Below, one piece after another: positions 29,155-50,722 of a stretch of DNA of 64,000 bases. The translations under genes were made by a program, and so were the position numbers. Each line of letters opens with the position of its first letter. The stretch's first letter is position 1. Source of the stretch: Plasmopara viticola (Eukaryota > Oomycota > Peronosporomycetes > Peronosporales > Peronosporaceae); assembly GCA_001695595.3 (NCBI GenBank), contig MBPM02000096.1, forward strand, positions 186,001 through 250,000. The letters are read 5' to 3'. The notes beneath the pieces are model-generated. The model searched no databases. It saw only the letters and a program-made list of their open reading frames with translations, and had not been told where the DNA came from.

Positions 29155-29231
29155 GACACGAGTGGGATTCGAACCCACGACCGAAGACTGGTGCCTAAAA
29201 CCAGCGCCTTAGACCACTCGGCCATCGTGTC
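29155..29231 (-). tRNA. tRNA-Leu(UAG), variable-arm variant
   Basis: CACGACCG change; class II. 5' half duplicate at 29236-29261. Confidence 0.9.
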
Positions 29232-29417: not shown

Positions 29418-29494
29418 GACACGAGTGGGATTCGAACCCACGCCCGAAGACTGGTGCCTAAAACCAGCGCCTTAGACCACTCGGCCATCGTGTC
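29418..29494 (-). tRNA. tRNA-Leu(UAG)
   Basis: Canonical; class I. Confidence 0.95.
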
Positions 29495-29650
29495 CTTGGC
29501 ATGACGAAGATTATTTATAAAAACAAATACGGAGAAAGACCGACAAAATAAAATCAATTCAATGGAGCACTCATTGCGAGATAAAATAAGTTAATGTGTT
29601 CAGGTAGTGACATTTGTATGTTTTAGTAAAATTGATTGTCGAGTAGTTGT

Positions 29651-29727
29651 GACACGAGTGGGATTCGAACCCACGCCCGAAGACTGGTGCCTAAAACCAG
29701 CGCCTTAGACCACTCGGCGATCGTGTC
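29651..29727 (-). tRNA. tRNA-Leu(UAG), A-box variant (TCGCC)
   Basis: One base changed at the A-box start (GACACGATCGCC). 5' half duplicate at 29732-29757, itself with AAGCC. Confidence 0.82.
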
Positions 29728-29911
29728 ATCGGGCTTAGACCACTCGGCCATCGTGTCCTCGGCATGATGAGAATTATTTATTAAAACAAATACGGAGAAA
29801 CACCGGCAAATAAAATCAATTTAATGGAGTACACATTGCGAGATAAAACAAGTTAATGTGGTCAGGTAGTGACATTTGTATATTTTGTTAAAATGATCGA
29901 CGGTGTGTTGT

Positions 29912-29988
29912 GACACGAGTGGGATTCGAACCCACGCCCGAAGACTGGTGCCTAAAACCAGCGCCTTAGACCACTCGGCCATCGTGTC
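29912..29988 (-). tRNA. tRNA-Leu(UAG)
   Basis: Canonical; class II. 5' half duplicate at 29993-30018 with AAGCC and a TGAT linker. Confidence 0.95.
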
Positions 29989-30172
29989 ATCAGGCTTAGA
30001 CCACTCGGCCATCGTGTCCTCGGCATGATGAGAATTATTTATTAAAACAAATACGGAGAAACACCGGCAAATAAAATCAATTTAATGGAGTACACATTGC
30101 GAGATAAAACAAGTTAATGTGGTCAGGTAGTGACATTTGTATATTTTGGTAAAATAATCGACGGTGTGTTGT

Positions 30173-30249
30173 GACACGAGTGGGATTCGAACCCACGCCC
30201 GAAGACTGGTGCCTAAAACCAGCGCCTTAGACCACTCGGCCATCGTGTC
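30173..30249 (-). tRNA. tRNA-Leu(UAG)
   Basis: Canonical; class II. Confidence 0.95.
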
Positions 30250-30405
30250 CTCGGCATGTTGAGAATTATTTATTAAAACAAATACGGAGAAACACCGGCA
30301 AAATAAAATCAATTTAGTGAAGAACTCATTGCGAGATAAAACAAGTTAATGTGGTCAGGTAGTGACATTTGTATGTTTTAGTAAAAGTGATTGTCGAGTA
30401 GTTGT

Positions 30406-30482
30406 GACACGAGTGGGATTCGAACCCACGCCCGAAGACTGGTGCCTAAAACCAGCGCCTTAGACCACTCGGCCATCGTGTC
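30406..30482 (-). tRNA. tRNA-Leu(UAG)
   Basis: Canonical; class I. 5' half duplicate at 30487-30512 with TCCAAGGC. Confidence 0.95.
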
Positions 30483-30667
30483 ATCGGCCTTGGACCACTC
30501 GGCCATCGTGTCCTCGGCATGATGAGAATTATTTATAAAAACAAATAGAGAGAAACACCGGTAAAATAAAATCAATTTAATGGAGTACTCATTGCGAGAT
30601 AAAACAAGTTAATGTGGTCAGGTAGTGACAATTGTATATTTTGGTAAAATAATCGACGGTGTGTTGT

Positions 30668-30744
30668 GACACGAGTGGGATTCGAACCCACGCCCGAAGA
30701 CTGGTGCCTAAAACCAGCGCCTTAGACCACTCGGCCATCGTGTC
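30668..30744 (-). tRNA. tRNA-Leu(UAG), upstream flank replaced by LINE B
   Basis: Canonical gene; class II. LINE B starts two bases beyond its 5' end, so its natural upstream spacer is now about 7.8 kb away. The internal A and B boxes are intact. Confidence 0.95.
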
Positions 30745-30823
30745 CGCCTCGTCGTGCTCAAGTCGACCAAGTCAAGTTTCGAAGTATCCAGTTTTTCAAG
30801 CACCCAAGCAAGCCTTTCCACCA

Positions 30824-33408
30824 ATGGACACCGAAGCCAGTTGCCCTTTCTTAGAGTCAGCGCAAGCTGATTGTGAGATGGGTGAGCTGATTCTACGTCC
30901 ATCCTCCCCCGCACGTACCCACGACCCATCGCCTAAAGAAGGTTCTGCAACCCTACCAAGCGACAGTTCAGCTGGGTCCGTACCCAACAACCCAGATGCC
31001 GGTGGGATTCACGGTTCCATCGAAGCTTCGTGTTTATGCACGGACCAGGGTAGTAACGCTGGTTCTGTGTCGCAAGCCTCGCACGAAACAAGTGATGGCA
31101 TGATCGTGCAGCTGCGGGTCACGCCTGCGCACAAGCCAACTGCTTCGCAGGATTTTGTGGAAGATGTGCAGCCCAACAGCGACACACGCCAATATACGCC
31201 ACCAACTAACGCCAGTGCTCTCCCGCAAACCGCAGCAACTCGCACGCGTTCGACTGCGAGCGCACCAACGCGCATGCCAACGCTTCGTGCCCTGCTTCAA
31301 CGTTCTACGGAGATCCGCCGCGACAACGTTGAGGCACCCGCCCCGCCGCGTGTCGAGATGCCCCGCCCCAAGGCGATGGACATCGAAACCATTGATGCTC
31401 TTTATGAAGCCGGAGGCGATTGGAGCCAACTCGCCGCCTCGATTGACCGAGCTCGTCCATACGCGCTGCCTCGTGCACGCTATGTAATGGTCATCGAGAC
31501 TGGACACGCCTTCCAGCGCACTGCACCAAGCAAAATCCTCGCGTCGTTGCTCAAGGACCAGGGCAACCCTGTCGTACAACACCAAATCGACCAGCAGCAA
31601 CTAGGTCAGCTGACCAAAGCTCCCGGCGGCAACATCCGCGTCAAGGTGAAGACGAAAGAAGCCTGCCAGAGTCTTGCTGGCCAGGAAGTCAAGATCCTCG
31701 GAGGCAGGTACCGATTCGGCGGGTTTGACATCCTTGCCGACCGCTTCTTTATTGATGTGTCAAGTGTCGACAGTGACTTCGATGCTGATCTCATGTTGAA
31801 TTCTTCGAGCTCGGTACGCAGCCGATCTACGGCACTTTCCGCGATGTAAATCTGGACGCGGTGATCACCACCGCCACTTGGCGTGTGTACTTCCGCTCTA
31901 GCCATTGCCCTCCGGAGCTCGTGATAAGTGGTACTGTGTGCGACCAGCTCGTTTTTGCTGGACGCATTTACCCAGTACACACAAAGAACGCTCCGTTTCC
32001 AACCCAACGCATGTCGTTCGGTCAGCGCTCAATCCACGCGCTCGACTTAGCTAGAGACGGTGGTCCATCCTCCGACACTAGCCAAAGGCGGCCAGATAAA
32101 TGCCCGTCGCAGCCATCTTATGCTGCCGTGGTACGTCGTGGCGTGCAGGAAACGTCGCTCCAACGATCGATCCGTGAAGACTCTGCCGCGACCACTGCTA
32201 TCGTTGCAGCACCGACTGATACCTTAGAGCCTAGTGAGCTGTCCCTAAGCACTGCAGGCTCCCAAGTCGTGTCGCCACCAAGCAGCCCGACATCGTCTCC
32301 GTTGCTCTTGCTCCCACCACCACCGACTGCCCAATCTGAGTTGGTGCCCAGGGTCGGTGGCAAACGCAAAGGCAAACGTTCACGTGCTGATGAAGACTTT
32401 GCCAATATGCTGATGAAATCTCGTCCGAAACCTCTCCCCGGCGTCACGACAAGCAACTACTTCGACGTGCTCAGCAATGTCGAGGTCGAGTTTGACTGCT
32501 GCCCAGCAACGCTCGATGAGGTCGAGATCCCACGGTTTCAAATTGTGCCACGCAAGGTGCAGGCGCCGCGCAACCTGACTGACAGCAAAGAAGCCAGTCA
32601 CTTTCTGACCAAACACCACACCAGAGTGGTGAAAACCAAAGAGCCTACTCCAATCCAAGAGATTGTCAGCGAGATGGAGGCTACTGAACAGACAGCCGAT
32701 CTCCAGCTGCTTCCGGATCGCTTGGCCGCCGCCGACACCATGGTGAGTGGCCTTCGCAAGTCGCTTCGCACGACGAACAACCCCGACACGCTGACGTTCA
32801 TGGGGTCCGTTAAAGCTCCAATGGCGTTCAACACCGCGCTCTTGCGTGAGATGCGTGAGCTGAGCCCCAGCGTCACCGAGCTGGCCCAGCTTCACATGAT
32901 CAATCGCATCTTAAGCGCGACCGACAACACCGAAACGAATACGTTCGCTCGCAAGTGGGCCAAGTATCTCGGCACCAAGGTGCCTAAGACGCGTGACGGT
33001 GTATTCCGATGCGTTGCCCAGTGGTGGAACAACCCGGACACACCAACTATTGTGCGTGCGACTAGGGCGCTGTCCCTCTTTGAGTTGATGTTGATGTGCA
33101 CAGCGCCCCAGATCTTTGAAAAGGACTACTGGCTCCAGCGTCTGACCGGGTGGTCGGTGCCTTGGATACCAGCGCACAACCGACGTCTTCTTCACCCCAA
33201 TATGTTGTTGGTCCTGCTTCGCTCCGAGATCGGCACACACTGCTTCAAGATTTGGGAAGCAGTCCAGTGGCAAGGGGATATACTCGAAGACCTCGAGTAC
33301 CTTCGTGACTGCGGCCATTACTTCCCAGAGAACGCGGATGTGCTCCAGCTCCAGCAAGTCGACGGTCAGTCTGTGCTTGTGACTGGACCGCTCGCCTTAA
33401 GGTGCTAA
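30824..33408 (+). pseudogene. LINE ORF1, frameshifted, copy B
   Basis: ATG chosen because MDTEASCPFLESAQ starts the conserved frame in copies B, C and D. An upstream extension exists only by reading antisense through the tRNA gene. A 4-nt deletion at about 31799 (TTGAATTCTTCG versus TTGAAACGCTTCTTCG) shifts the frame inside the second RRM-like unit, and the proper frame resumes to the stop at 33406-33408. Otherwise nearly identical to copy A. Confidence 0.85.
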
Positions 33409-33409
33409 G

Positions 33410-36400
33410 GTGGTCCCACGCGTGGACGCACCCGAGGTCTCGTGGCAAGAAGTCAGCTTGCTGACCGTTAATACCAACGGGATCAAGAAAAACGGGCACC
33501 TACTAATAGAGAATTTGCTCGAGAAGCACAGCCTCTCTTGCATCCAGGAGACCAAATTCCGCGATTGCCACCATCTTGACACCTTCAAATTTAACCTTCA
33601 GGCCCGTTTCAGGCACAAGCTATTCGTCAGCGACCCTGGTGCAGTCAGTGCCACACAGACAACACACCGATCTGGCGGAGTGCTCACTGTGCTTCGCTAC
33701 GACTTTCCAGGCTTCGATGCGGCCGAAGAGCTTCGCGAGCTGACTGTCCGGGACGCTATCTAGTTGTTCGATTGGTGGTCGTCAGTGCACCTGTGTACAT
33801 CCACAATGTGTACTCGCCGGTGGACGACCACGAAAAAGCTGTGTTCTTCAACCATCTTCCAGTGGACCGCTTTGAGGACAATGCAACGCACATAGTCCTC
33901 GGCGATTTGAACACGCCGCTGAACCCCAGCCTCGACTCATCCCAGCCACGCTTGCTTGCTCGCCCGGGCCGCAGCGCTTGTATGAGCTGGCTGAGCCAGC
34001 TAGGTGTCGTAGATGCCTGGCGGATCCACCACCAAGACGAGCGCATATACACTGGCCCCCAGCCGAGGCAGAACCGACTTGATTATGCTATGTTGTCGGA
34101 AGACTTCTGCAACGCGTTGTACGGCGACTCTAAGTACTTTGAGCCCAAAGGTGCTGGTGACCACCTGGCGCACACAGTAACCTTGCGCTCGGTGTCTCAA
34201 CTCCACGGATATGGCTACTGGCGCTTTCCGGAGTATCTTCTTGAATACTCCGATGTTGTCGATGCCATCTGTGGCGAAGCCCGACAGGTGCTCGAGAATC
34301 TCCAGGCTGCATCGAACCCAGGCAAAGTCTGGGAGCAGTGGAAGAAATTTATGCGGCGCCAGATACAGGCCCTCCAACGTAAGCTACGCAGCCAAAACGA
34401 CGTCGCCATTACAGCTGCACAAATCACGCTAGACCAAGCAGCAATGCGGTACCATAACAAGCGAGACGCAACCTCCCAAGAGGCCTTTCGTGCTGCACTA
34501 GAAACATACCGCGACTGCGTGACCCGGTCTCGCTGCTACAACCAAGACTCGGCCTTTGACTTTCAAGTTCAGAAGGCCGAGACGTCTTCCACGTACTTCT
34601 TCCGTCCGATCGACCCATCACTCCGACGGGTCAGCATTGAACAAGTTCGGACTCCCAGCGGCGACATCTCGCAAAACCCAGCGGACATCTCAGCATGCTT
34701 TCGGGCCCACTGGGGTTGTATCATGGGCGATGCTGCCAATCCTGCCGGACCATTACCACCCATCAATCCCAGCAGCCGACGAAAGCTGTTGAACACGATT
34801 GACAAGCGTCTAACAACCGATGAACAAGACCGTCTCAACGCCCCGATTTCCGGAGCCAATCTTGCTGACGCGCTCAAGCATATGAAGACCAACTCCGCGC
34901 CTGGCATGGACGGTCTCACAGCTGGCTTCTATCAGGTCGCGCCCGACGTTTTCGGGGAATGTCTGAGCATAGTGTTCAATTATCAGTTGGCACGAGGTGA
35001 GCTCCTCCCTTCCCAGCGCAAGTCGGCTGTGTGCATGTTGCACAAGAAAGGCTCGCGTGACGACCCCGGAAACTTTCGGCCGATCTCGCTCATTGGCGTT
35101 GACGTGAAGGCGTTATCCAAGGTCTTGACCTACCGCCTCCAGCACTGCCTTCCTGAGCTTATACACACCGACCAGAAGGCGTTCGTCAAGGGTCGGTCTA
35201 TTCATCATCATGTGCGGTTCATGGCCGATCTGCAAGACCTCACGACTGCACGCGACGAAGAAGCCTACGCTTTGTTTCTCGACTTCGAGAAGGCGTACGA
35301 TCGGGTCGACTGGGACTACATGTTTCAAGTGCTCGATCGCATGGGTTGCGGCGGCGCCTTCACCAACTGGGCGAGGTTGCTTTACACCGCCCCACAAGCA
35401 CACCTCTTGCTCAACGGTCACATCCAGCCGCCGATTTTCCCCACAAGAGGAGTCAAGCAAGGCGACCCACTCTCAGCGCTGCTGTTTCTTATGGCTATCG
35501 AGCCACTGGGGAACCTGCTCCGACAGCATGAAGAGCATGGTGTTTGCCTCACCGAAGACCACACCGCCACCAGCGTCTTTTTTGCTGATGACACAACGTT
35601 GCTCTCTGGCTCGGTGTCCGGCATCCAGGCACAGCTTGACCTGGTTCAGCTGTACTGCGATGGCTCCGGAGCCAAGCTCAACTATGCCAAATGCGTGCTT
35701 ATGCCTCTAAACCGACGGACAAACCCTCCTTGTTTTCCTGGTGTCAAGTTGCTCCAGCGTGGTGAGACGGTCAAGTTTCTGGGCATCCTGTTTGGTCAGG
35801 ATCCTGTTGAAAACGCCATCATAGAGCTCTTGGACAGGCGATTCTACGAAGGTTTCTCCAATGGTTTCGTCGCGCTCGCACCTTGCGAGGACGCCTGCTG
35901 GTTGCGCTAACAATGGTGCTTTCTCGGTTGTGGCACTACACTGTGCATGTGCCAATCCCGCAGCGGATCGTTAAGCAGTGGCAGTCCACGCTCAACCGCT
36001 TTGTACTTGCACGTCGCTACGAACGCAACGCCAAACACGTCCAGCTGATTCCCAAGGAGTTTCTGTATCAACCTCGCTCCGACGGTGGTCTGTCAGTACC
36101 CAGCATCGAAGCCTCACTTAAGCGTCAAAAGCTCAGCGTGCTGCTCCAGTTCATCGCTGCGTCGACCTCGTCCCAATGTAACTGGACCACACCAGGAGTC
36201 GTGCTTCTGTCGCTTGTGCTGCCCACTTGGGGTCCCCGGCGTCCTCTCGACTATCTTACGGTTAGCCCATGCGCCACGGCGCTCTGCTGCGGTGGGATGT
36301 GTTGTCACAGTGGTGGCGCCAAGTCTGGCGTCTATGGTATATGACCAAGTGGGAAGTCACATGGCGAGACCTCGCCCCCCTCGCCCGCCTCGGCTATGTG

Positions 36401-37544
36401 CTGAACCAACCGATTTGGTTCCACGCCGACGCTGATTCCAGTTTGAACTCGCCGCCCGTGTTAGCAGCTCAAAAGTACAGCGGCGTAGTCTTTGCATGGT
36501 TGCCGAGCCCCAGCGCAGCTACCGCCAGCACACCGCAACAACTTTCAAACTTCGGTGTCTTGCTGACTTCTTGAATGCTGGCGGTGCATGGCCGGATGCT
36601 GATGCGTTTGCGCGCGGACACATTGACTACCGGCTCACGTCAGTCCCTGTGTACCAACAGTACCAGTGGCTCCGACGCCTGCATCACGAAGCCACACAAG
36701 TCTTCGAGCGACTACGGGATCTATGCGCCAATACACCGCTTCCGCCTCCAGGCGTGTCCTGGGTGTGTCCCACTGCACCATACGTTGGCGTGCGCGTGGG
36801 GGAACGCGTCTGTGTTGCGCCCTTAGTACCACGTTCCCAGTTGCTCCTGCTTGTGTGGAAGATCCCCACGCTCACGAAGCCACACCCAATCCAGCTGCAC
36901 GATGAGCACGCCACAACAATCGACATCAAAGTTTTCGTGACACAGTCCAAGCGTTTACGTCGGCTGCTGCTTCCTGTATACGAAGATCTGCAATTCCGAC
37001 TCGCCTTCCGTCTGTTGCCAGTGCGTTCACGATTCTCTTTTCTGCGCGAGGCGCATCCCGGCATCATCTACTGCGTACGCAGCGGATGCAACGCAGTGGA
37101 AACAGAGCGGCACCTGTTCTTTGAGTGCGTTTACCAGCCGAGCTATGGCCAGTTCTGTTTCGTGACTGGTCAGCTTTCTTCGTCACCACACCGACATGGC
37201 TCGACATCGCCCTTGGTCGCCCACCAGCCCTTACATCCGCTTGGCACGACCATGCCGCCGTGGTTCATGATCTGTGGCAGATCACACGTTGCATCACGCT
37301 CCACTTGCTGTGGACAGTGCGCAATGACGGATTGTTCCGCCAGCGTGAGCTTTTGCCTCTGGTGCCTGCGCTTCGGGTCGTGTACACCACACTTAGTGCC
37401 CACGTGCGTGCATGCAAACGTAGGGTGTACGACGAAGACCAGCAAGCATCGCTCCAGTCTGTGCTGACCCGGCTCCGATGCTCTCGCTCGATGGGTGCCT
37501 TTATGCGCACCAACGCTCCGCTGTTTGCTGTGCGTTTCCTGTAG
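33410..37544 (+). pseudogene. LINE ORF2, frameshifted, copy B
   Basis: Endonuclease and RT motifs are as in copy C, including FADD at about 35582. Losses relative to copy C: one C near 33748, one C near 35855, one C near 36266, one T near 36436 and one T near 37130, all in short homopolymers. The central frame still carries most of the endonuclease and the complete RT core (33772-35910). The pattern fits either young pseudogene decay or uncorrected long-read indels. Confidence 0.87.
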
Positions 37545-38573
37545 CCGTCCCTACTTCTACCAACACTTCGCCTTAGCCGTCCCTACTTCCAACACCAACG
37601 CTTCGCCTTAGCCGTTTTTCGCCGGCGGACTCAATTCGGCTCCAAAATTGGCCAAAATTTCGGTTTACCTGTGATACTGTATATGAATTTTACAGAATAT
37701 CATGTCCCGAAGTGATCGGCTTTGACGGGGATAAGTCTGACAGGTCAGAAGATTATTTTAAGAGCGATCGATTTTCGGAGGGGATAAGATCTAGAGGTGA
37801 TTTTGTGATCGATTTTCGGAGGGGATAAGATATAGAGGTGATTTTGTGCCTCATAACACACATCCTCACTTTCCAATTTTCCTCCAAGTACCCAAGTCAA
37901 GCCGATCAAGCCCCAAGTAGCCAGGATGAACTCAACCAGCAACCAGTGCTTCCCCAGGGCCCCCCGACCAAGACGACTGGACCGAGGTCGGAGACTAGAC
38001 GGTCGTCGCCAGGGCCCGAAAGGGTGACGGGCGGCCTGAGCCTGACTCTCGATCCAGTCGCTGCGGTAGAGGACCCTGTGGTCGAGGCGCTGCATCAGGG
38101 CTGCGCGTCCAAAGAGTGAGCCTCCACTTCTCCACTTCAGTTTCGGAGACTAGAGGGTCGTCGCCAGGGCCCGAAAGGGCGACGGGCGGCTCGAGCCCGA
38201 ATTCTGTTGTGGAGTTAGTGGTTGACTGCTCTAAGCCGGCGTGTCTGCAGCGGACCGAGAGCTGGAACACCGGCTTCGCTTCCCGCAACGACGGACAAGG
38301 CTTCGAACTGTACATGGAAGGTCAATACTTTGCTAGGTAGGTCAACTATCACGTCCAAGTGGAAATCCGCGAAACCAGCAGAAACACTGGTCCCGGTGAA
38401 GGATTGTGAAATAAAATCAATCACTTCTATCCGGCCGATCAAAGTGCTTGTCACACCAAACGATTAGAAGAAAACCTCAAGTTAACCTGTAGACAGGTAG
38501 TAGATTGTATATTAGTTAAACGACGTAGGCATAGAGAAGTGGAAGTCGTATTAAGTAATACAGACTACTTGAA
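37545..38573 (+). other. LINE copy B 3' untranslated region
   Basis: Same organisation as copy A: 32-bp repeat pair with a diverged second unit, 41-bp repeat pair, two hairpin units and the conserved terminal ~250 bp. Confidence 0.75.
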
Positions 38574-38744
38574 CTCGGCCATCGTGTCCTCGGCATGATG
38601 AGAATTGTTTATTAGAAAAAATACGGAGATACACCGGCAAAATAAAATCAATTTAGTGAGGAACTCATTGCGAGATAAAACAAGTTAATGTGTTCAGGTA
38701 GTGACATTTGTATGTTTTAGTAAAATTGATTGTCGAGTAGTTGT

Positions 38745-38821
38745 GACACGAGTGGGATTCGAACCCACGCCCGAAGACTGGTGCCTAAAACCAGCGCCTT
38801 AGACCATTCGGCCATCGTGTC
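38745..38821 (-). tRNA. tRNA-Leu(UAG), D-loop variant
   Basis: CCATTCGG on the plus strand: one A-box base changed (GAATGG). Class I; counterpart of 7785-7861. Confidence 0.88.
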
Positions 38822-38976
38822 CTCGGCATGATGAGAATTATTTATTAAAACAAATACGAGAGAAACACCGGCAAATAAAATCAATTTGATGGAGTACTCA
38901 TTGCGAGATAAAACAAGTTTATGCGGTCAGGTAGTGACATTTGTATATTTTGGTAAAATGATTGACGGTGTGTTGT

Positions 38977-39053
38977 GACAGGAGTGGTATTCGAACCCAA
39001 GCCCGAAGACTGGTGCCTAAAACCAGCGCCTTAGACCACTCGGCCATCGTGTC
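38977..39053 (-). tRNA. tRNA-Leu(UAG)-like, T-arm and acceptor variant
   Basis: Counterpart of 8243-8319 with the same two T-stem breaks plus an acceptor change (GACAGGA). Probably inactive. 5' half duplicate at 39058-39083. Confidence 0.68.
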
Positions 39054-39239
39054 ATCGGCCTTAGACCACTCGGCCATCGTGTCCTCGGCATGATGATAAT
39101 TATTTATTAAAACAAATACGGAGAAACACCGGCAAAATAAAATCAATTTAATGGAGTAGTCATTGCGAGATAAAACACGTTATTGTGGTCAGGTAGTCAC
39201 ATTTGTATGTTTTAGTAAAAGTGATTGTCGAGTAGTTGT

Positions 39240-39316
39240 GACACGAGTGGGATTCGAACCCACGCCCGAAGACTGGTGCCTAAAACCAGCGCCTTAGACC
39301 ACTCGGCCATCGTGTC
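39240..39316 (-). tRNA. tRNA-Leu(UAG)
   Basis: Canonical; class I. 5' half duplicate at 39321-39346, absent from the counterpart at 8506. Confidence 0.95.
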
Positions 39317-39502
39317 ATCGGCCTTAGACCACTCGGCCATCGTGTCCTCGGCATGATAATAATTATTTATTAAAACAAATACGGAGAAACACCGGCAAAA
39401 TAAAATCAATTTAATGGAGTAGTCATTGCGAGATAAAACACGTTATTGTGGTCAGGTAGTCACATTTGTATGTTTTAGTAAAAGTGATTGTCGAGTAGTT
39501 GT

Positions 39503-39579
39503 GACACGATTGGGATTCGAACCCACGCCCGAAGACTGGTGCCTAAAACCAGCGCCTTAGACCACTCGGCCATCGTGTC
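39503..39579 (-). tRNA. tRNA-Leu(UAG), upstream flank replaced by S3
   Basis: CGATTGGG variant (outer T-stem G-A). Confidence 0.85.
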
Positions 39580-39580
39580 C

Positions 39581-40126
39581 TCACCGACGCAAGTCGACGG
39601 CTACCCAACATCTGACAACACTACGTCAGCCAAGCCAAGCTCGTTGGCTTTGATGTTGACAATGGCTTCCGGAAGATTGACCGGATCGTTCGTTACTGTC
39701 GTCAAGCCGTCCCCAAGTCAGGATGGAGCATTCACCTGCCTCAACTTCGCTGTAACCTCTTCGACAGCAATGGTGCAGGATACCTCGCATTCGCTCGACG
39801 GGTGCTTCCCATGCCCAAAGTCGTTCTTGCCCGTGATGTTAACCTCGTCGGGGTGTACAAGAAGAACATGCGAGGTCACTGCTTTGCTATGCAGGTCAAC
39901 GTTAAAGGTGAGGTAATTTTTCGCGAACATAGCATCAATATTGGTCTCGGTGAGAACTTATGGTCTCGTACAATAAGTTTTATCCGACCGATCAAAGTGT
40001 TTGTCACATCTAACGACTAGAAGTCCCCCTCACATTAGCCTATAGCAACGTAGTAATATTGTATGTTATTATTCGACGTAGGCATAGAGAAGTCTAAGTC
40101 GTAATCAGTAACATAGACTACTTGAA
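39581..40126 (+). mobile_element. S3, short non-autonomous tRNA-targeting element
   Basis: 546 bp, same start TCACCGACGC and same end as S1. The internal 136-aa frame has lost its start (ATCTGA in place of ATGTGG). Target duplication at 40127-40142, followed by spacer that S1 and S2 lack. Confidence 0.8.
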
Positions 40127-40296
40127 CTCGGCCATCGTGTCCTCGGCATGAAGGAATTATCTATAAAGACAAATACAGAGAAACACCGGCAAAACAAAAT
40201 CAATTCGATGGTGTAGTCATTGCGAGATAAAACAAGTTAATGTGGTCAGGTAGTGACATTTGTATGTTTTAGTAAAAATGATTGTCGAGTAGTTGT

Positions 40297-40373
40297 GACA
40301 CGAGTGGAATTCGAACCCACGCCCGAAGACTGGTGCCTAAAACCAGCGCCTTAGACCACTCGGCCATCGTGTC
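40297..40373 (-). tRNA. tRNA-Leu(UAG), T-stem wobble variant
   Basis: GTGGAATTC; class I. Confidence 0.9.
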
Positions 40374-40529
40374 CTCGGCATGACGAAGATTATTTATAAA
40401 AACAAATACGGAGAAACACCGGCAAAATAAAATCAATTCAATGGAGTACTCATTGCGCGATAAAACAAGTTAATCTGTTCAGGTAGTGACATTTGTATGT
40501 TTTAGTAAAAGTGATTGTCGAGTAGTTGT

Positions 40530-40606
40530 GACACGAGTGGGATTCGAACCCACGCCCGAAGACTGGTGCCTAAAACCAGCGCCTTAGACCACTCGGCCAT
40601 CGTGTC
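40530..40606 (-). tRNA. tRNA-Leu(UAG)
   Basis: Canonical; class I. 5' half duplicate at 40611-40636. Confidence 0.95.
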
Positions 40607-40790
40607 ATCGGCCTTAGACCACTCGGTCATCGTGTCCTCGGCATGATGAGATTTATTTAATAAAACAAATAGAGAGAAACACCGGCAAGTAAAATCAATT
40701 TAATGGAGTACACATTGCGAGATAAATCAAGTTAATGTGGTCAGGTAGTGACATTTGTATATTTTGTTAAAATGATCGACGGTGTGTTGT

Positions 40791-40867
40791 GACACGAGTG
40801 GGATTCGAACCCACGCCCGAAGACTGGTGCCTAAAACCAGCGCCTTAGACCACTCGGCCATCGTGTC
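40791..40867 (-). tRNA. tRNA-Leu(UAG), upstream flank replaced by LINE C
   Basis: Canonical; class II. LINE C begins two bases past its 5' end. Confidence 0.95.
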
Positions 40868-40958
40868 CACTTCTCAATTTGCCTCGTCGTGCTCAAGTCG
40901 ACCAAGTCAAGTTTCGAAGTATCCAGTTTTTCAAGCACCCAAGCAAGCCTTTCCACCA

Positions 40959-43545
40959 ATGGACACCGAAGCCAGTTGCCCTTTCTTAGAGTCAGCGCAA
41001 GCTGATTGTGAGATGGGTGAGCTGATTCTACGTCCATCCTCCCCCGCACGTACCCACGACCCATCGCCTAAGAAGGTTCCGCAACCCTACCAAGCGACAG
41101 TTCAGCTGGGTCCGTACCCAACAACCCAGATGCCGGTGGGATTCACGGTTCCATCGAAGCTTCGTGTTTATGCACGGACCAGGGTAGTAACGCTGGTTCT
41201 GTGTCGCAAGCCTCGCACGAAACAAGTGATGGCATGATCGTGCAGCTGCGGGTCACGCCTGCGCACAAGCCACCTGCTTCGCAGGATTTTGTGGAAGATG
41301 TGCAGCCCAACAGCGACACACGCCAATATACGCCACCAACTAACGCCAGTGCTCTCCCGCAAACCGCAGCAACTCGCACGCGTTCGACTGCGAGCGCACC
41401 AACGCGCATGCCAACGCTTCGTGCCCTGCTTCAACGTTCTACGGAGATCCGCCGCGACAACGTTGAGGCACCCGCCCCGCCGCGTGTCGAGATGCCCCGC
41501 CCCAAGGCGATGGACATCGAAACCATTGATGCTCTTTATGAAGCCGGAGGCGATTGGAGCCAACTCGCCGCCTCGATTGACCGAGCTCGTCCATACGCGC
41601 TGCCTCGTGCACGCTATGTAATGGTCATCGAGACTGGACACGCCTTCCAGCGCACTGCACCAAGCAAAATCCTCGCGTCGTTGCTCAAGGACCAGGGCAA
41701 CCCTGTCGTACAACAGCAAATCGACCAGCAGCAACTAGGTCAGCTGACCAAAGCTCCCGGCGGCAACATCCGCGTCAAGGTGAAGACGAAAGAAGCCTGC
41801 CAGAGTCTTGCTGGCCAGGAAGTCAAGATCCTCGGAGGCAGGTACCGATTCGGCGGGTTTGACATCCTTGCCGACCGCTTCTTTATTGATGTGTCAAGTG
41901 TCGACAGTGACTTCGATGCTGATCTCATGTTCAAACGCTTCTTCGAGCTCGGTACGCAGCCGATCTACGGCACTTTCCGCGATGTATTCTGGACGCGGTG
42001 ATCACCACCGCCACTCGGCGTGTGTACTTCCGCTCTAGCCATTGTCCTCCGGAGCTCGTGATAAGTGGTACTGTGTGCGACCAGCTCGTTTTTGCTGGAC
42101 GCATTTACCCAGTACACACAAAGAACGCTCCGTTTCCAACCCAACGCATGTCGTTCGGTCAACGCTCAATCCACGCGCTCGACTTAGCTAGAGACGGTGG
42201 TCCATCCTCCGACACTAGCCAAAGGCGGCCAGATAAATGCCCGTCGCAGCCATCTTATGCTGCCGTGGTACGTCGTGGCGTGCAGGAAACGTCGCTCCAA
42301 CGATCGATCCGTGAAGACTCTGCCGCGACCACTGCTATTGTTGCAGCACCGACTGATACCTTAGAGCCTAGTGAGCTGTCCCTAAGCACTGCAGGCTCCC
42401 AAGTCGTGTCGCCACCAAGCAGCCCGACATCGTCTCCGTTGCTCTTGCTCCCACCACCACCGACTGCCCAATCTGAGTTGGTGCCCAGGGTCGGTGACAA
42501 ACGCAAAGGCAAACGTTCTCGTGCTGATGAAGACTTTGCCAATATGCTGATGAAATCTCGTCCGAAACCTCTCACCGGCGTCACGACAAGCAACTATTTC
42601 GACGTGCTCAGCAATGTCGAGGTCGAGTTTGACTGCTGCCCAGCAACGCTCGATGAGGTCGAGATCCCACGGTTTCAAATTGTGCCACGCAAGGTGCAGG
42701 CGCCGCGCAACCTGACTGACAGCAAAGAAGCCAGTCACTTTCTGACCAAACACCACACCAGAGTGGTGAAAACCAAAGAGCCTACTCCAATCCAAGAGAT
42801 TGTCAGCGAGATGGAGGCTACTGAACAGACAGCCGATCTCCAGCTGCTTCCGGATCGCTTGGCCGCCGCCGACACCATGGTGAGTGGCCTTCGCAAGTCG
42901 CTTCGCACGACGAACAACCCCGACACGCTGACGTTCATGGGGTCCGTTAAAGCTCCAATGGCGTTTAACACCGCGCTCTTGCGTGAGATGCGTGAGCTGA
43001 GCCCCAGCGTCACCGAGCTGGCCCAGCTTCACATGATCAATCGCATCTTAAGCGCGACCGACAACACCGAAACGAATACGTTCGCTCGCAAGTGGGCCAA
43101 GTATCTCGGCACCAAGGTGCCTAAGACGCGTGACGGTGTATTCCGATGCGTTGCCCAGTGGTGGAACAACCCGGACACACCAACTATTGTGCGTGCGACT
43201 AAAGCGCTGTCCCTCTTTGAGTTGATGTTGATGTGCACAGCGCCCCAGATCTTTGAAAAGGACTACTGGCTCCAGCGTCTGACCGGGTGGTCGGTGCCTT
43301 GGATACCAGCGCACAACCGACGTCTTCTTCACCCCAATATGTTGTTGGTCCTGCTTCGCTCCGAGATCGGCACACACTGCTTCAAGATTTGGGAAGCAGT
43401 CCAGTGGCAAGGGGATATACTCAAAGACCTCGAGTACCTTCGTGACTGCGGCCATTACTTCCCAGAGAACGCGGATGTGCTCCAGCTCCAGCAAGTCGAC
43501 GGTCAGTCTGTGCTTGTGACTGGACCGCTCGCCTTAAGGTGCTAA
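40959..43545 (+). pseudogene. LINE ORF1, frameshifted, copy C
   Basis: ATG at 40959 (MDTEASCP). One A is missing in GCCTAAGAAGG near 41071 relative to copy B. A second change, GATGTATTCTGG for GATGTAAATCTGG near 41988, shifts the frame again in the second RRM-like unit. From 41998 to 43545 the C-terminal part is open. Confidence 0.85.
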
Positions 43546-43546
43546 G

Positions 43547-46500
43547 GTGGTCCCACGCGTGGACGCACCCGAGGTCTCGTGGCAAGAAGTCAGCTTGCTG
43601 ACCGTTAATACCAACGGGATCAAGAAAAACGGACACCTACTAATAGAGAATTTGCTTGAGAAGCACAGCCTCTCTTGCATCCAGGAGACCAAATTCCGCG
43701 ATTGCCACCATCTTGACACCTTCAAATTTAACCTTCAGGCCCGTTTCAGGCACAAGCTATTCGTCAGCGACCCTGGTGCAGTCAGTGCCACACAGACAAC
43801 ACACCGATCTGGCGGAGTGCTCACTGTGCTTCGCTACGACTTTCCAGGCTTCGATGCGGCCGAAGAGCTTCGCGAGCTGACTGTCCCGGGACGCTATCTA
43901 GTTGTTCGATTGGTGGTCGTCAGTGCACCTGTGTACATCCACAATGTGTACTCGCCGGTGGACGACCACGAAAAAGCTGTGTTCTTCAACCATCTTCCAG
44001 TGGACCGCTTTGAGGACAATGCAACGCACATAGTCCTCGGCGATTTGAACACGCCGCTGAACCCCAGCCTCGACTCATCCCAGCCACGCTTGCTTGCTCG
44101 CCCGGGCCGCAGCGCTTGTATGAGCTGGCTGAGCCAGCTAGGTGTCGTAGATGCCTGGCGGATCCACCACCAAGACGAGCGCATATACACTGGCCCCCAG
44201 CCGAGGCAGAACCGACTTGATTATGCTATGTTGTCGGAAGACTTCTGCAACGCGTTGTACGGCGACTCTAAGTACTTTGAGCCCAAAGGTGCTGGTGACC
44301 ACCTGGCGCACACAGTAACCTTGCGCTCGGTGTCTCAACTCCACGGATATGGCTACTGGCGCTTTCCGGAGTATCTTCTTGAATACTCCGATGTTGTCGA
44401 TGCCATCTGTGGCGAAGCCCGACAGGTGCTCGAGAATCTCCAGGCTGCATCGAACCCAGGCAAAGTCTGGGAGCAGTGGAAGAAATTTATGCGGCGCCAG
44501 ATACAGGCCCTCCAACGTAAGCTACGCAGCCAAAACGACGTCGCCATTACAGCTGCACAAATCACGCTAGACCAAGCAGCAATGCGGTACCATAACAAGC
44601 GCGACGCAACCTCCCAAGAGGCTTTTCGTGCTGCACTAGAAACATACCGCGACTGCGTGACCCGGTCTCGCTGCTACAACCAAGACTCGGCCTTTGACTT
44701 TCAAGTTCAGAAGGCCGAGACGTCTTCCACGTACTTCTTCCGTCCGATCGACCCATCACTCCGACGGGTCAGCATTGAACAAGTTCGGACTCCCAGCGGC
44801 GACATCTCGCAAAACCCAGCGGACATCTCAGCATGCTTTCGGGCCCACTGGGGTTGTATCATGGGCGATGCTGCCAATCCTGCCGGACCATTACCACCCA
44901 TCAATCCCAGCAGCCGACGAAAGCTGTTGGACACGATTGACAAGCGTCTAACAACCGATGAACAAGACCGTCTCAACGCCCCGATTTCCGGAGCCAATCT
45001 TGCTGACGCGCTCAAGCATATGAAGACCAACTCCGCGCCTGGCATGGACGGTCTCACAGCTGGCTTCTATCAGGTCGCGCCCGACGTTTTCGGGGAATGT
45101 CTGAGCATAGTGTTCAATTATCAGTTGGCACGAGGTGAGCTCCTCCCTTCCCAGCGCAAGTCGGCTGTGTGCATGTTGCACAAGAAAGGCTCGCGTGACG
45201 ACCCCGGAAACTTTCGGCCGATCTCGCTCATTGGCGTTGACGTGAAGGCGTTATCCAAGGTCTTGACCTACCGCCTCCAGCACTGCCTTCCTGAGCTTAT
45301 ACACACCGACCAGAAGGCGTTCGTCAAGGGTCGGTCTATTCATCATCATGTGCGGTTCATGGCCGATCTGCAAGACCTCACGACTGCACGCGACGAAGAA
45401 GCCTACGCTTTGTTTCTCGACTTCGAGAAGGCGTACGATCGGGTCGACTGGGACTACATGTTTCAAGTGCTCGATCGCATGGGTTGCGGCGGCGCCTTCA
45501 CCAACTGGGCGAGGTTGCTTTACACCGCCCCACAAGCACACCTCTTGCTCAACGGTCACATCCAGCCGCCGATTTTCCCCACAAGAGGAGTCAAGCAAGG
45601 CGACCCACTCTCAGCGCTGCTGTTTCTTATGGCTATCGAGCCACTGGGGAACCTGCTCCGACAGCATGAAGAGCATGGTGTTTGCCTCACCGAAGACCAC
45701 ACCGCCACCAGCGTCTTTTTTGCTGATGACACAACGTTGCTCTCTGGCTCGGTGTCCGGCATCCAGGCACAGCTTGACCTGGTTCAGCTGTACTGCGATG
45801 GCTCCGGAGCCAAGCTCAACTATGCCAAATGCGTGCTTATGCCTCTAAACCGACGGACAAACCCTCCTTGTTTTTCTGGTGTCAAGTTGCTCCAGCGTGG
45901 TGAGACGGTCAAGTTTCTGGGCATCCTGTTTGGTCAGGATCCTGTTGAAAACGCCATCATAGAGCTCTTGGACAGGCGATTTTACGAAGGTTTCCTCCAA
46001 TGGTTTCGTCGCGCTCGCACCTTGCGAGGACGCCTGCTGGTTGCGCTAACAATGGTGCTTTCTCGGTTGTGGCACTACACTGTGCATGTGCCAATCCCGC
46101 AGCGGATCGTTAAGCAGTGGCAGTCCACGCTCAACCGCTTTGTACTTGCACGTCGCTACGAACGCAACGCCAAACACGTCCAGCTGATTCCCAAGGAGTT
46201 TCTGTATCAACCTCGCTCCGACGGCGGTCTGTCAGTACCCAGCATCGAAGCCTCACTTAAGCGTCAAAAGCTCAGCGTGCTGCTCCAGTTCATCGCTGCG
46301 TCGACCTCGTCCCAATGTAACTGGACCACACCAGGAGTCGTGCTTCTGTCGCTTGTGCTGCCCACTTGGGGTCCCCGGCGTCCTCTCGACTATCTTACGG
46401 TTAGCCCCATGCGCCACGGCGCTCTGCTGCGGTGGGATGTGTTGTCACAGTGGTGGCGCCAAGTCTGGCGTCTATGGTATATGACCAAGTGGGAAGTCAC

Positions 46501-47678
46501 ATGGCGAGACCTCGCCCCCCTCGCCCGCTTCGGCTATGTGCTGAACCAACCGATTTGGTTCCACGCCGACGCTGTTTTCCAGTTTGAACTCGCCGCCCGT
46601 GTTAGCAGCTCAAAAGTACAGCGGCGTAGTCTTTGCATGGTTGCCGAGCCCCAGCGCAGCTACCGCCAGCACACCGCAACAACTTTCAAACTTCGGTGTC
46701 TTGCTGACTTCTTGAATGCTGGCGGTGCATGGCCGGATGCTGATGCGTTTGCGCGCGGACACATTGACTACCGGCTCACGTCAGTACCAACAGTACCAGT
46801 GGCTCCGACGCCTGCATCACGAAGCCACACAAGTCTTCCAGCGACTACGGGATCTATGCGCCAATACACCGCTTCCGCCTCCAGGCGTGTCCTGGATGTG
46901 TCCCACTGCACCATACGTTGGCGTGCGCGTGGGGGAACGCGTCTGTGTTGCGCCCTTAGTACCACGTTCCCAGTTGCTCCTGCTTGTGTGGAAGATCCCC
47001 ACGCCCACGAAGCCACACCCAATCCAGCTGCACGATGAGCACGCCACAACAATCGACATCAAAGTTTTCGTGACACAGTCCAAGCGTTTACGTCGGCTGC
47101 TGCTTCCTGTATACGAAGATCTGCAATTCCGACTCGCCTTCCGTCTGTTGCCAGTGCGTTCACGATTCTCTTTTCTGCGCGAGGCGCATCCCGGCATCAT
47201 CTACTGCGTACGCAGCGGATGCAACGCAGTGGAAACAGAACGGCACCTGTTCTTTGAGTGCGTTTTACCAGCCGAGCTATGGCCAGTTCTGTTTCGTGAC
47301 TGGTCAGCTTTCTTCGTCACCACACCGACATGGCTCGACATCGCCCTTGGTCGCCCACCAGCCCTTACATCCGCTTGGAACGACCATGCCGCCGTGGTTC
47401 ATGATCTGTGGCAGATCACACGTTGCATCACGCTCCACTTGCTGTGGACAGTGCGCAATGACGGATTGTTCCGCCAGTGTGAGCTTTTGCCTCTGGTGCC
47501 TGCGCTTCGGGTCGTGTACACCACACTTAGTGCCCACGTGCGTGCATGCAAACGTAGGGTGTACGACGAAGACCAGCAAGCATCGCTCCAGTCTGTGCTG
47601 ACCCGGCTCCGATGCTCTCGCTCGATGGGTGCCTTTATGCGCACCAACGCTCCGCTGTTTGCTGTGCGTTTCCTGTAG
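43547..47678 (+). pseudogene. LINE ORF2 (APE endonuclease + RT), one late frameshift, copy C
   Basis: Best view of the protein (1379 aa if restored in length). APE endonuclease residues ~15-260: LLTVNTNG (17-24), catalytic E47 in CIQETK, GDLNTP (~165) and GAGDHLAHT (~248). RT residues ~490-760: APGMDG, FVKGRS, LDFEKAYDR (~622, motif A Asp), GVKQGDP (~681), FFADD (~724) and KFLGILFG. A Trp- and Arg-rich region and the zinc-type motif C-x4-C-x7-H-x4-C follow. An 8-nt deletion near 46784 separates the last ~300 codons, which continue open in another frame to TAG at 47678. Expected role: nicks the tRNA target and copies element RNA by target-primed reverse transcription in the nucleus. First codon is GTG; the frame has no early ATG. 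Confidence 0.9.
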
Positions 47679-48676
47679 CCGTCCCTACTTCTACCAACAC
47701 TTCGCCTTAGCCGTTTCTTTTCGCCGGCGGACTCAATTCGGCTCCAAAATTGGCCAAAATTTCGGTTTACCTGTGATGCTGTATATGAATTTTACAGAAT
47801 ATCATGTCCCGAAGTGATCGGCTTTGACGGGGGATAAGTCTGACAGGTCAGAATATTATTTTAAGAGCGATCGATTTTCGGAGGGGATAAGATCTAGAGG
47901 TGATTTTGTGATCGATTTTCGGAGGGGATAAGATATAGAGGTGATTTTGTGCCTCATAACACACATCCTCACTTTCCAATTTTCCTCCAAGTACCCAAGT
48001 CAAGCCGATCAAGCCCCAAGTAGCCAGGATGAACTCAACCAGCAACCAGTGCTTCCCCAGGCCCCCCCGACCAAGACGACTGGACCGAGGTCGGAGACTA
48101 GACGGTCGTCGCCAGGGCCCGAAAGGGTGACGGGCGGCCTGAGCCTGACTCTCGATCCAGTCGCTGCGGTAGAGGACCCTGTGGTCGAGGCGCTGCATCA
48201 GGGCTGCGCGTCCAAAGAGTGAGCCTCCACTTCTCCACTTCAGTTTCGGAGACTAGAGGGTCGTCGCCAGGGCCCGAAAGGGCGACGGGCGGCTCGAGCC
48301 CGAATTCTGTTGTGGAGATAGTGGTTGACTGCTCTAAGCGGGCGTGTCTGCAGCGGACCGAGAGCTGGAACACCGGCTTCGCTTCCCGCAACGACGGACA
48401 AGGCTTCGAACTGTACATGGAAGGTCAATACTTTGCTAGGTAGGTCAACTATCACGTCCAAGTGGATATCCGCGAAACCAGCAGAAACACTGGTCCCGGT
48501 GAAGGATTGTGAAATAAATTCAATCACTTCTATCCGGCCGATCAAAGTGCTTGTCACACCAAACGATTAGAAGAAAACCTCAAGTTAACCTGTAGACAGG
48601 TAGTAGATTGTATATTAGTTAAACGACGTAGGCATAGAGAAGTGGAAGTCGTATTAAGTAATACAGACTACTTGAA
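47679..48676 (+). other. LINE copy C 3' untranslated region
   Basis: Only one 32-bp unit after the stop; the 41-bp pair and both hairpin units are present. Ends GACTACTTGAA. Confidence 0.75.
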
Positions 48677-48841
48677 CTCGGCCATCGTGTCCTCGGCATG
48701 ATGAGAATTATTTATAAAAACAAATAGAGAGAAACACCGGCAAATAAAATCAATTTAATGGAGTACTCATTGCGAGATAAAACAAGTTAATGTGGTCAGG
48801 TAGTGACATTTGTATATTTTGTAAAATGATTAGTGTGTTGT

Positions 48842-48918
48842 GACACGAGTGGGATTCGAACCCACGCCCGAAGACTGGTGCCTAAAACCAGCGCCTTAGA
48901 CCACTCGGCCATCGTGTC
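48842..48918 (-). tRNA. tRNA-Leu(UAG)
   Basis: Canonical gene; shortened class II flank (GATTAGTGTGTTGT). Confidence 0.95.
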
Positions 48919-49065
48919 CTCGGCATGATGAGAATTGTTTATTAAAAAAATACGGAGAAACACCGGCAAATAAAATCAATTTAGTGGGATTTGCGAGATA
49001 AAACAAGTTAATGTGTCAGGTAGTGACATTTGTATGTTTTAGTAAAATGATTGTCGAGTAGTTGT

Positions 49066-49142
49066 GACACGAGTGGGATTCGAACCCACGCCCGAAGACT
49101 GGTGCCTAAAACCAGCGCCTTAGACCACTCGGCCATCGTGTC
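49066..49142 (-). tRNA. tRNA-Leu(UAG)
   Basis: Canonical; class I. Confidence 0.95.
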
Positions 49143-49294
49143 CTCGGCATGATGAGAATTTATTAAAACAAATACGGAGAAACACCGGCAAATAAAATCA
49201 ATTTAATGGAGTACACATTGCGAGATAAAACAAGTTAATGTGGTCAGGTAGTGACATTTGTATGTTTTAGTAGAAATGATTGTCGAGTAGTTGT

Positions 49295-49371
49295 GACACG
49301 AGTGGGATTCGAACCCACGCCCGAAGACTGGTGCCTAAAACCAGCGCCTTAGACCACTCGGCCATCGTGTC
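49295..49371 (-). tRNA. tRNA-Leu(UAG)
   Basis: Canonical gene. The usual first T4 run is changed (TTTCTACTAAAA on the minus strand), so termination may occur further downstream. Confidence 0.93.
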
Positions 49372-49527
49372 CTCGGCATGATGATAATTATTTATTAAAA
49401 CAAATACGGAGAAACACCGGCAAAATAAAATCAATTTAGTGAGGAACTCATTGCGAGATAAAACAAGTTGGTGTGTTCAGGTAGTGACATTTGTATGTTT
49501 TAGTAAAATTGATTGTCGAGTAGTTGT

Positions 49528-49604
49528 GACACGAGTGGGATTCGAACCCACGCCCGAAGACTGGTGCCTAAAACCAGCGCCTTAGACCACTCGGCCATCG
49601 TGTC
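49528..49604 (-). tRNA. tRNA-Leu(UAG)
   Basis: Canonical; class I. Confidence 0.95.
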
Positions 49605-49760
49605 CTCGGCATGATGATAATTATTTATTAAAACAAATACGGAGAAACACCGGCAAAATAAAATCAACTTAATGGAGTAGTCATTGCGAGATAAAACACG
49701 TTATTGTGGTCAGGTAGTCACATTTGTATGTTTTAGTAAAAGTGATTGTCGAGTAGTTGT

Positions 49761-49837
49761 GACACGAGTGGGATTCGAACCCACGCCCGAAGACTGGTGC
49801 CTAAAACCAGCGCCTTAGACCACTCGGCCATCGTGTC
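49761..49837 (-). tRNA. tRNA-Leu(UAG), upstream flank replaced by S4
   Basis: Canonical, with CGAGTGGG, unlike the CGATTGGG genes beside S1-S3. Confidence 0.95.
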
Positions 49838-49838
49838 C

Positions 49839-50383
49839 TCACCGACGCAAGTCGACGGCTACCCAACATGTGGCAACACTACGTCAGCCAAGCCAAGCTC
49901 GTTGGCTTTGATGTTGACAATGGCTTCCGGAAGAATGACCGGATCGTTCGTTACTGTCGTCAAGCCGTCCCCGAGTCAGGATGGAGCATTCACCTCCCTC
50001 AACTTCGCTGTAACCTCTTCGACAGCAATGGTGCAGGATACCTCGCAATCGCTAGACGGGTGCTTCCCATGCCAAAAGTCGTTTTTGCCCGTGATGTTAA
50101 CCTCGTCTGGGTGTACAAGAAGAACTGCGAGGTCACTGCTTTGCTATGCAGGTCAACGTTAAAGGTGAGGTAATTTTTTGCGAAAATAGCATCAATACTG
50201 GTTCCGGTGAGAACTTATGGTCTCGTACCATTAGTTTTATCCGACCGATCAAAGTGTTTGTCACATCTAACGACTAGAAGTCCACCTCACACTAGCCTAT
50301 AGCAACGTAGTAATATTGTATGTTATTATTCGACGTAGGCATAGAGAAGTCTAAGTCGTAATCAGTAACATAGACTACTTGAA
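49839..50383 (+). mobile_element. S4, short non-autonomous tRNA-targeting element
   Basis: 545 bp and the most diverged S copy. The 136-aa frame is broken by one missing base (AAGAACTGCGAGG for AAGAACATGCGAGG). Target duplication at 50384-50399. Confidence 0.8.
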
Positions 50384-50553
50384 CTCGGCCATCGTGTCCT
50401 CGGCATGAAGGAATTATCTATAAAGACAAATACAGAGAAACACCGGCAAAACAAAATCAATTCGATGGTGTAGTCATTGCGAGATAAAACAAGTTAATGT
50501 GGTCAGGAAGTAAAATTTGTGTGTTTTAGTAGAAATGATTGTCGAGTAGTTGT

Positions 50554-50630
50554 GACACGAGTGGGATTCGAACCCACGCCCGAAGACTGGTGCCTAAAAC
50601 CAGCGCCTTAGACCACTCGGCCATCGTGTC
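50554..50630 (-). tRNA. tRNA-Leu(UAG), upstream flank replaced by LINE D
   Basis: Canonical; class I with an altered spacer (GTAGAAATGATTGTCG), so the normal first T4 run is lost. Confidence 0.93.
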
Positions 50631-50722
50631 CCACTTCTCAATTTGCCTCGTCGTGCTCAAGTCGACCAAGTCAAGTTTCGAAGTATCCAGTTTTTCAAGC
50701 ACCCAAGCAAGTCTTTCCCCCA

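Follow-up and report, generated by a model that had tools for sequence, protein, structure and literature searches.

A tRNA-Leu array interrupted by LINE copies

The window analysed here, a stretch of 64,000 nucleotides from the oomycete Plasmopara viticola (C96:186001-250000, within an assembly of 92,937,831 bases in 358 contigs, which is the genome searched throughout), holds a tandem array of tRNA-Leu genes with copies of a long interspersed nuclear element (LINE) in between (Table 1). ARAGORN finds 96 tRNA genes in the window, all of them tRNA-Leu and on the minus strand, with the anticodon UAG in 91 and AAG in five, and the Rfam count is likewise 96. The 16-mer CTCGGCCATCGTGTCC occurs 145 times at up to two mismatches, against an expectation of 0.02. 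The spacers between the tRNA genes are longer than the genes themselves, and a run of four T starts about 16 nt downstream of the tRNA gene beside copy C. The LINE copies A, C and E, the 3′ part W and the short copies S1-S4 have a common end point, a single position at the 5′ end of a tRNA-Leu gene. An earlier note, made from the letters of this DNA, had claimed that the LINE ends lie at one exact position of tRNA-Leu(UAG) genes, and this holds for all eight.

Parts of the window are duplicates made by the array, as follows from the common 12-nt 5′ truncation of copies A and W, whose right flanks are 99.6% identical, and from the near-identity of S1-S3 (99.6-100% to each other; 96-100% when S4 is included). 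By these similarities, A and W, as well as S1-S4, look like duplicates made with the array, and S1-S4 may be read as one truncated copy duplicated along with it. S1-S4 were also considered as a family of short interspersed elements; this was rejected, as their homologues elsewhere are longer and carry a third open reading frame (ORF).

Table 1. Features of the window, in window positions (position 1 is C96:186001).
Feature	Position	Strand	Remarks
LINE copy C	40869..48677	+	class II tRNA lineage; full 5′ end ACTTCTCAATTTGCC, tail ...CTTGAAC; 5′ and 3′ joints to tRNA-Leu(UAG)
ORF1 part, copy C	41923..43545	+	no Pfam match
ORF2 open frame, copy C	43538..47038	+	Exo_endo_phos endonuclease and RVT_1 reverse transcriptase
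LINE copy A	30746..38574	+	lacks first 12 nt of LINE; 98.8% identity to copy C
LINE copy W	1..7614	+	3′ part; 5′ end beyond the window at C96:185786; 99.4% identity to copy A
LINE copy E	50633..55673	+	internal deletion; own 3′ end and own target duplication
S1	8817..9363	+	short 5′-truncated copy; 3′ tail and target site as in long copies
S2	9815..10361	+	short copy like S1
S3	39581..40127	+	short copy like S1
S4	49839..50384	+	short copy like S1
Tandem array	7783..50630	-	96 tRNA-Leu genes with LINE copies in between
Intact tRNA-Leu(UAG) gene at copy C	40789..40867	-	back to back with 5′ end of copy C
Intact tRNA-Leu(UAG) gene at copy A	30666..30744	-	adjoins copy A
Intact tRNA-Leu(UAG) gene at copy E	50552..50630	-	adjoins copy E
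Target duplication after copy C	48678..48692	-	complement of tRNA nt 14-1 and one upstream base
Target duplication after copy A	38575..38589	-	
Target duplication after copy E	55674..55688	-	one substitution

The element is an APE-type LINE

The ORF2 product of copy C matches PF03372 (E = 7.6e-06) and PF00078 (E = 3.8e-33) in Pfam. Its endonuclease is N-terminal and of the apurinic/apyrimidinic (APE) type, and the motif blocks of both the endonuclease and the reverse transcriptase (RT) are present, with residues that we take to be catalytic. Among solved structures the closest is human L1 ORF2p, which matches over endonuclease and RT (E = 8.4e-62), while R2 proteins match in the RT part only. 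No nuclease other than the APE type was found by Pfam in copy C, P0003 or P0019, so that the restriction-like endonuclease (RLE) of NeSL and other RLE LINEs is not seen in them. The ORF2 frame of copy C is shorter than that of some other copies, such as the one of 1382 aa at C72. Target duplication and 5′ truncation (by 12 nt in copy A, and in S1-S4), which are expected for target-primed reverse transcription, are both present. The element is an APE-type LINE. The earlier note had proposed that such a LINE inserts with base-exact precision in the tRNA-Leu(UAG) genes that make up a tandem array, and this is borne out.

The joint lies directly after A14 of the tRNA gene

Since most tRNA genes have a G at position 15, their joints leave open which base ends the element tail. 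Two genes with a different base at this position, which are targets of sister lineages described below, allow the joint to be placed. The Arg(ACG) gene reads GGCCCA-ATGG and the LINE joint there GGCCCA-GTT; the Ala(AGC) gene reads TAGCTCA-AATGG and the joint TAGCTCA-GTTT. These readings assign the tail ...AAC to the element itself and place the joint immediately after the invariant A14 in the A box. The element tails mostly agree, being CTTGAAC in the class II lineage and CTTTAAC, CTTCAAC or CTTTCAAC in the class I lineages. The 16-mer had been described as 15 nt of the tRNA gene and one upstream base, which is right as a description, but by the sister lineages base 15 belongs to the element tail, and the duplicated part in the window copies is tRNA nt 1-14 with one or two upstream bases.

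At the other end, the 5′ joints lie within 3 nt of tRNA nucleotide 1 wherever a gene was called, which gives a target duplication of about 14-16 nt. A flank comparison was tried at 22 loci, and at 17 of them the stretch also contained an intact gene from the family hit to compare with. In 15 of these 17, identity to an array unit of the same family is 96% or higher over the 50 nt that follow the duplication, so that the array units show the empty site; the two lower values are 82% (L105) and 38% (L033), and the comparison gene of L033 itself adjoins a LINE. The tRNA gene beside the LINE is complete, its nt 1-14 being rebuilt by the duplication. The tRNA gene is thus cut but, in most copies checked, not destroyed, and an intact gene remains at the 5′ end of the LINE.

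In several places a LINE tail is followed by a 14-nt tRNA remnant and then directly by the 5′ end of the next LINE (L025/L081 on C20, L088 on C233, L089 on C48, L117 and L118). We considered these tandem joints as proof of insertion into a 14-nt remnant and rejected this, as a second LINE that hits a rebuilt gene gives the same joint.

Copies of the window lineage in Leu and Ser tRNA genes

Genome searches gave 40 matches with the 3′ end of the LINE, 40 with the short copy and 28 with the 5′ end. The 3′ flanks were read at 40 distinct places, namely 39 of the 40 matches of the 3′-end search and one from the short-copy search (C211); C9:715534 and fragments at C33, C37 and C16, which have no 3′ end, were left out. 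All 40 places run on into the complement of tRNA nt 14 to 1 with at most one mismatch. The genes hit are Leu-UAG/AAG (18), Ser (15; the 14-mer is common to four Ser isoacceptors), Leu-CAG (4), Leu-CAA (2) and Leu-UAA (1). Copies whose 3′ ends are 99-100% identical, and which are on that ground probably young, have the same joint as the others.

For 27 of the 28 matches at 5′ ends the adjoining gene was read, and the 28th (C96:185786) comes directly after the 16-mer. An intact tRNA gene adjoins 22 of the 27, and 21 of these genes are Leu or Ser, from eight isoacceptors: Leu-UAG 7, Leu-CAG 3, Leu-CAA 1, Leu-UAA 1, Ser-AGA 3, Ser-GCU 2, Ser-CGA 2 and Ser-UGA 2. The remaining intact gene, Lys-UUU, adjoins a weak match of 55 bp, probably to a copy from a sister lineage. 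The five 5′ ends that are left comprise a tandem LINE joint (C20), decayed-looking Leu- or Ser-like genes (C9, C25, C49) and a place with no tRNA (C90). As the earlier note had asked, flanks outside the locus were thus tabulated, and some copies do lie in tRNA-Leu(UAG) genes there, but others lie in genes of other Leu and Ser isoacceptors.

Sister lineages in class I tRNA genes

Relatives of the copy C ORF2 product occur in the same genome at 55-63% identity (best 40 of 1013 protein candidates). The sample of these lineages comprised 20 stretches downstream of the relatives' ORFs, 22 further 3′ stretches and 38 stretches at 5′ ends. ARAGORN found tRNA genes in 14 of the 20 downstream stretches (Arg, His and Ala, Thr, Lys, Tyr, Ser, Met, Ile, Phe), all of them antisense to the LINE. 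The 3′ joint was reached in 17 of the 20 (C342 and C6 end before it, and C8 shows none); 14 of the 17 match a tRNA 14-mer from the loci fetched exactly and one with a single mismatch. With the further 3′ stretches, 20 of 22 of which match with at most one mismatch, the class I total is 35 of 39. Many copies at unrelated sites, the observation that the earlier note had named as telling against its claim, were not seen in the copies sampled from either set of lineages.

An intact class I tRNA gene adjoins 30 of the 38 class I 5′ ends (fetched from the best 40 of 63 candidates), and 14 isoacceptors are represented: Thr-AGU 5, Phe 4, Tyr 4, Cys 3, Lys-UUU 3, Thr-CGU 2, Ala-CGC 2, and one each of Lys-CUU, Met, Ile, Ala-AGC, Thr-UGU, Arg-ACG and Asn. 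The other eight are two tandem LINE joints, one decayed Thr gene, one end inside a Ser gene elsewhere, and four that are unclear or without a tRNA. As a description of the target, tRNA-Leu(UAG) is therefore correct for the window and too narrow beyond it, given eight Leu and Ser isoacceptors for the window lineage and 14 class I ones, at the homologous position, for its sisters.

The genes hit differ in their A boxes. The A box of the class I families reads GC(T/C)CA at nt 10-14 in all 14 that have an intact gene at the 5′ end, and that of the class II families reads CCGA. In His/Ala dimer arrays the joints read, which are few and perhaps not independent, fall in Ala and not in His, whose gene has GTATA at the A-box site.

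Choice of the site

Taken together, we assign a probability of roughly 0.84 to the reading that a clade of APE-type LINEs inserts right after A14 of the tRNA A box, in Leu and Ser genes for the window lineage and in class I genes for its sisters, with an endonuclease predicted to choose the site by reading A-box DNA. The endonuclease would nick the tRNA-sense strand after A14. The element RNA, with its tail ...CTT(N)AAC, would be copied from the nicked 3′ end by target-primed reverse transcription, and the other strand would be cut at about tRNA position 1, some 14-16 nt from the first nick. The resulting duplication would rebuild the tRNA gene, which likely still works and would stay a target; the tandem joints of LINE, duplication and LINE fit such a rebuilt gene as a renewed target. 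The lineages would differ in the A box read, GCYCA for class I and CCGA for class II. That the endonuclease reads the A-box DNA directly is, like the nicking and copying steps, an inference. It is favoured by the split of the lineages by A box and by the joints in Ala and not in His, because the factors of RNA polymerase III (Pol III) presumably serve all tRNA genes.

Several observations weigh against this reading. The copies sampled are the best-scoring ones (best 40 of 1013 protein candidates, and best 40 of 63 and best 40 of 79 in further searches), and the counts are of places and not of independent events, since arrays duplicate copies. Four of the 39 class I 3′ joints do not match at up to one mismatch: that at C245 is cut off by the contig end after seven matching nt, those at C48 and L147 (the latter with three mismatches) have a class I A box but no gene identified, and the class I LINE 3′ end of L149 (C349:14378-14473) lies in a tRNA-Leu(CAA) gene in the opposite orientation, near the same part of the gene. 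Of all 65 5′ ends, 13 have no intact tRNA gene (three tandem LINE joints, four decayed-looking tRNA genes, six elsewhere or unclear). In Val/Ser dimer arrays the joints read fall in Ser and not in Val, but this sparing of Val genes next to Ser genes says little, because the lineage that hits Ser is the class II one. It is also conceivable that Pol III factors recruit the element while the endonuclease sets the exact cut.

The best of the rival explanations is targeting as in the TRE elements of Dictyostelium, likewise LINEs at tRNA genes, whereby the Pol III machinery on tRNA genes would recruit the element and the endonuclease would add little sequence specificity. The sites are indeed Pol III genes with an A box, and passages on the dictyostelid elements describe targeting of TRE5-A via host DNA-binding proteins (PMC3706591) and integration windows in the flanks of tRNA genes (PMC5006619). 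The joints described here, however, are not in such an outside window but base-exact inside the gene (at tRNA nt 14/15 and about nt 1), the class I and class II lineages divide by A-box sequence, and the few joints in His/Ala dimers lie in Ala, all of which makes this explanation unlikely.

It is very improbable that insertion is relaxed and that only copies which leave the tRNA gene intact in a multicopy array survive selection. Arrays should be safe sites, and large ones are known in Phytophthora infestans, with 7,519 chromosomal tRNA genes, largely in tandem arrays, in the part of PMC9584435 that describes them. Selection, however, would hardly fix one nucleotide across 22 isoacceptor families or keep copies out of the spacers, whose length in the window exceeds that of the genes, and copies that are probably young have the same joint. 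As to a position shared by accident, a first look at the genome gave 13,680 tRNA candidates (of which 63 were scored), a number usable as a rough upper bound, and even if all of them were genes the chance of a random insertion at one given nucleotide in one orientation would be about 7 in 100,000.

The spread of a single old insertion by unequal crossing-over of the arrays, which the earlier note had named as a danger to its claim in the form of segmental duplication, is valid for part of the window (A and W, and S1-S4) but refuted as a general explanation and the least probable of all, since array duplication cannot account for insertions beside 22 isoacceptor families (eight Leu and Ser, 14 class I) with the flank of the family hit in 15 of the 17 loci compared.

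In a bolder version of the preferred reading, that of an endonuclease which reads the A box, the Pol III A box would be a landing site that is universal and renews itself, for a clade dating back to when downy mildews and Globisporangium split. The endonuclease would read the box and nick after A14 in more than 20 families; the rebuilt gene would be functional and hit again; transcription of the LINE would start from a Pol II promoter of its own, placed back to back with the tRNA gene; the lineages would have shared out the tRNA genes into a class I and a class II niche; and nicking would make the tRNA arrays of oomycetes grow and turn over, as is thought of R2 for rDNA. In its entirety we regard this version as doubtful.

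The lineages offer a natural series of related endonucleases that use different A boxes at one structural position in the same gene family, so that domain swaps on naked DNA could test how site specificity arises in an APE endonuclease. The LINE might also account for the size that tRNA arrays reach in oomycetes (P. infestans has thousands of genes, by the same passage of PMC9584435), and a mode of insertion that keeps the target gene whole may serve safe-site gene insertion.

Comparison with other elements

Dewa, from zebrafish, is placed in the Tx1 group, with an apurinic-type endonuclease and tRNA tandem arrays. It is tied to tRNA-Leu genes like this LINE, but its target is described as the spacer of tRNA-Leu (Kojima and Fujiwara 2004, as cited in PMC3706591), whereas this LINE uses one nucleotide within the gene and does so in many isoacceptors. 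NeSL-1_TV, LIN15_SM and LIN25_SM are listed as specific for tRNA-Pro, tRNA-Arg and tRNA-Glu genes, respectively (PMC4640811); unlike this LINE, they are relatives of the NeSL clade, fall outside the target-specific clades that bear an APE, and are each listed for a single tRNA. Keno and Utopia, the latter RLE-type and kept in several lineages by oomycetes, are likewise site-specific LINEs inside small RNA genes, but their target is the U2 small nuclear RNA genes (PMC4640811).

Dada DNA transposons, from several lineages in fish and Perkinsus, share the target. Their insertion point is tRNA nt 8-13, within the A box and at sites that are orthologous between different tRNA genes (PMC8869645), and they have a DDE transposase and duplications of 6-7 bp (PMC3706591), whereas the LINE has an RT, an APE endonuclease and duplications of about 14-16 nt. 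Dada and this LINE are convergent and not related, and the LINE is, after Dada, a second unrelated answer to the same target. Human L1, with the nearest solved relative of the ORF2 product, is to our knowledge not gene-specific, unlike this LINE. Its duplications, of 15 bp (PMC4245944), are alike.

The earlier note had supposed that an APE-type LINE which cuts inside a tRNA gene, with this gene amplified into an array, is little or not described. LINEs specific for tRNA genes are in print, but those found are RLE-type, in the spacer or near the gene. Among the titles and abstract openings listed in searches of the open literature, we found no APE LINE at the tRNA A box and no oomycete LINE in tRNA genes. 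By the passages describing them, none of the precedents Dewa, NeSL-1_TV, LIN15/25 and Dada combines these features.

Phylogeny, 5′ end and third ORF

The named protein relatives above about 40% identity are all from oomycetes (Globisporangium, Plasmopara, Peronospora, Phytophthora, Lagenidium, Aphanomyces and Thraustotheca; many rows are nameless), and weaker ones include Cannabis and Chara. No row named Tx1 or L1 is among the protein matches listed (51 rows; best 120 of 673) or in the RT tree; sequence-specific insertion, a trait of the Tx1 clade, is present, which is not diagnostic alone. In the RT tree of 94 rows, those that bear an oomycete name fall in one group of 76. The window copy groups with P0001 and proteins of Globisporangium splendens (support 97/92), inside a group of 11 rows (100/93) to which the class-I-targeting element of C233 also belongs, while the class-I-targeting elements of C55, C255 and C147 fall in another (100/99). 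This topology, with a root that is drawn only and Globisporangium members known from proteins alone, suggests that a switch away from class I targets gave rise to the class II lineage before Plasmopara and Globisporangium split.

The LINE begins with 15 nt, ACTTCTCAATTTGCC, that are conserved between lineages, and 35 of the 38 class I 5′ ends fit CAWTTTNYY, which a passage of PMC3599244 gives as the oomycete FPR core-promoter motif. By this motif match, the start of the LINE, with an FPR-like motif in its first 15 nt, and that of the tRNA would stand back to back.

Some copies carry a third ORF after ORF2 (L046, at C112:51276-54828, L048 and L103). It has a chromodomain-like stretch, with a match to the cpSRP43 chromodomain (E = 2.9e-07) that was seen only in the comparison with solved structures; Pfam finds no chromodomain in it, and a homologue in Lagenidium bears the name Chromo domain-containing. 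The stretch that follows looks like a cysteine protease. The window copies seem to keep only a remnant of this ORF.

Further features of the window

At 30 places in the window (for example 8305-8350, 10797-10842 and 40592-40637), array units have a partial duplication of the tRNA 5′ end, of about 30 nt, exactly at the LINE target. A possible origin of these is a cut that was mended with no LINE inserted and left its trace, which was later spread by the array. In the 3′ region of copy A, a stretch of 58 bp is present twice (37988-38045 and 38143-38200, 91% identical). Beyond the array, an inverted repeat of 724 bp, identical at 721 of 724 positions (59732-60455 and 63277-64000), probably represents the ends of another mobile element.

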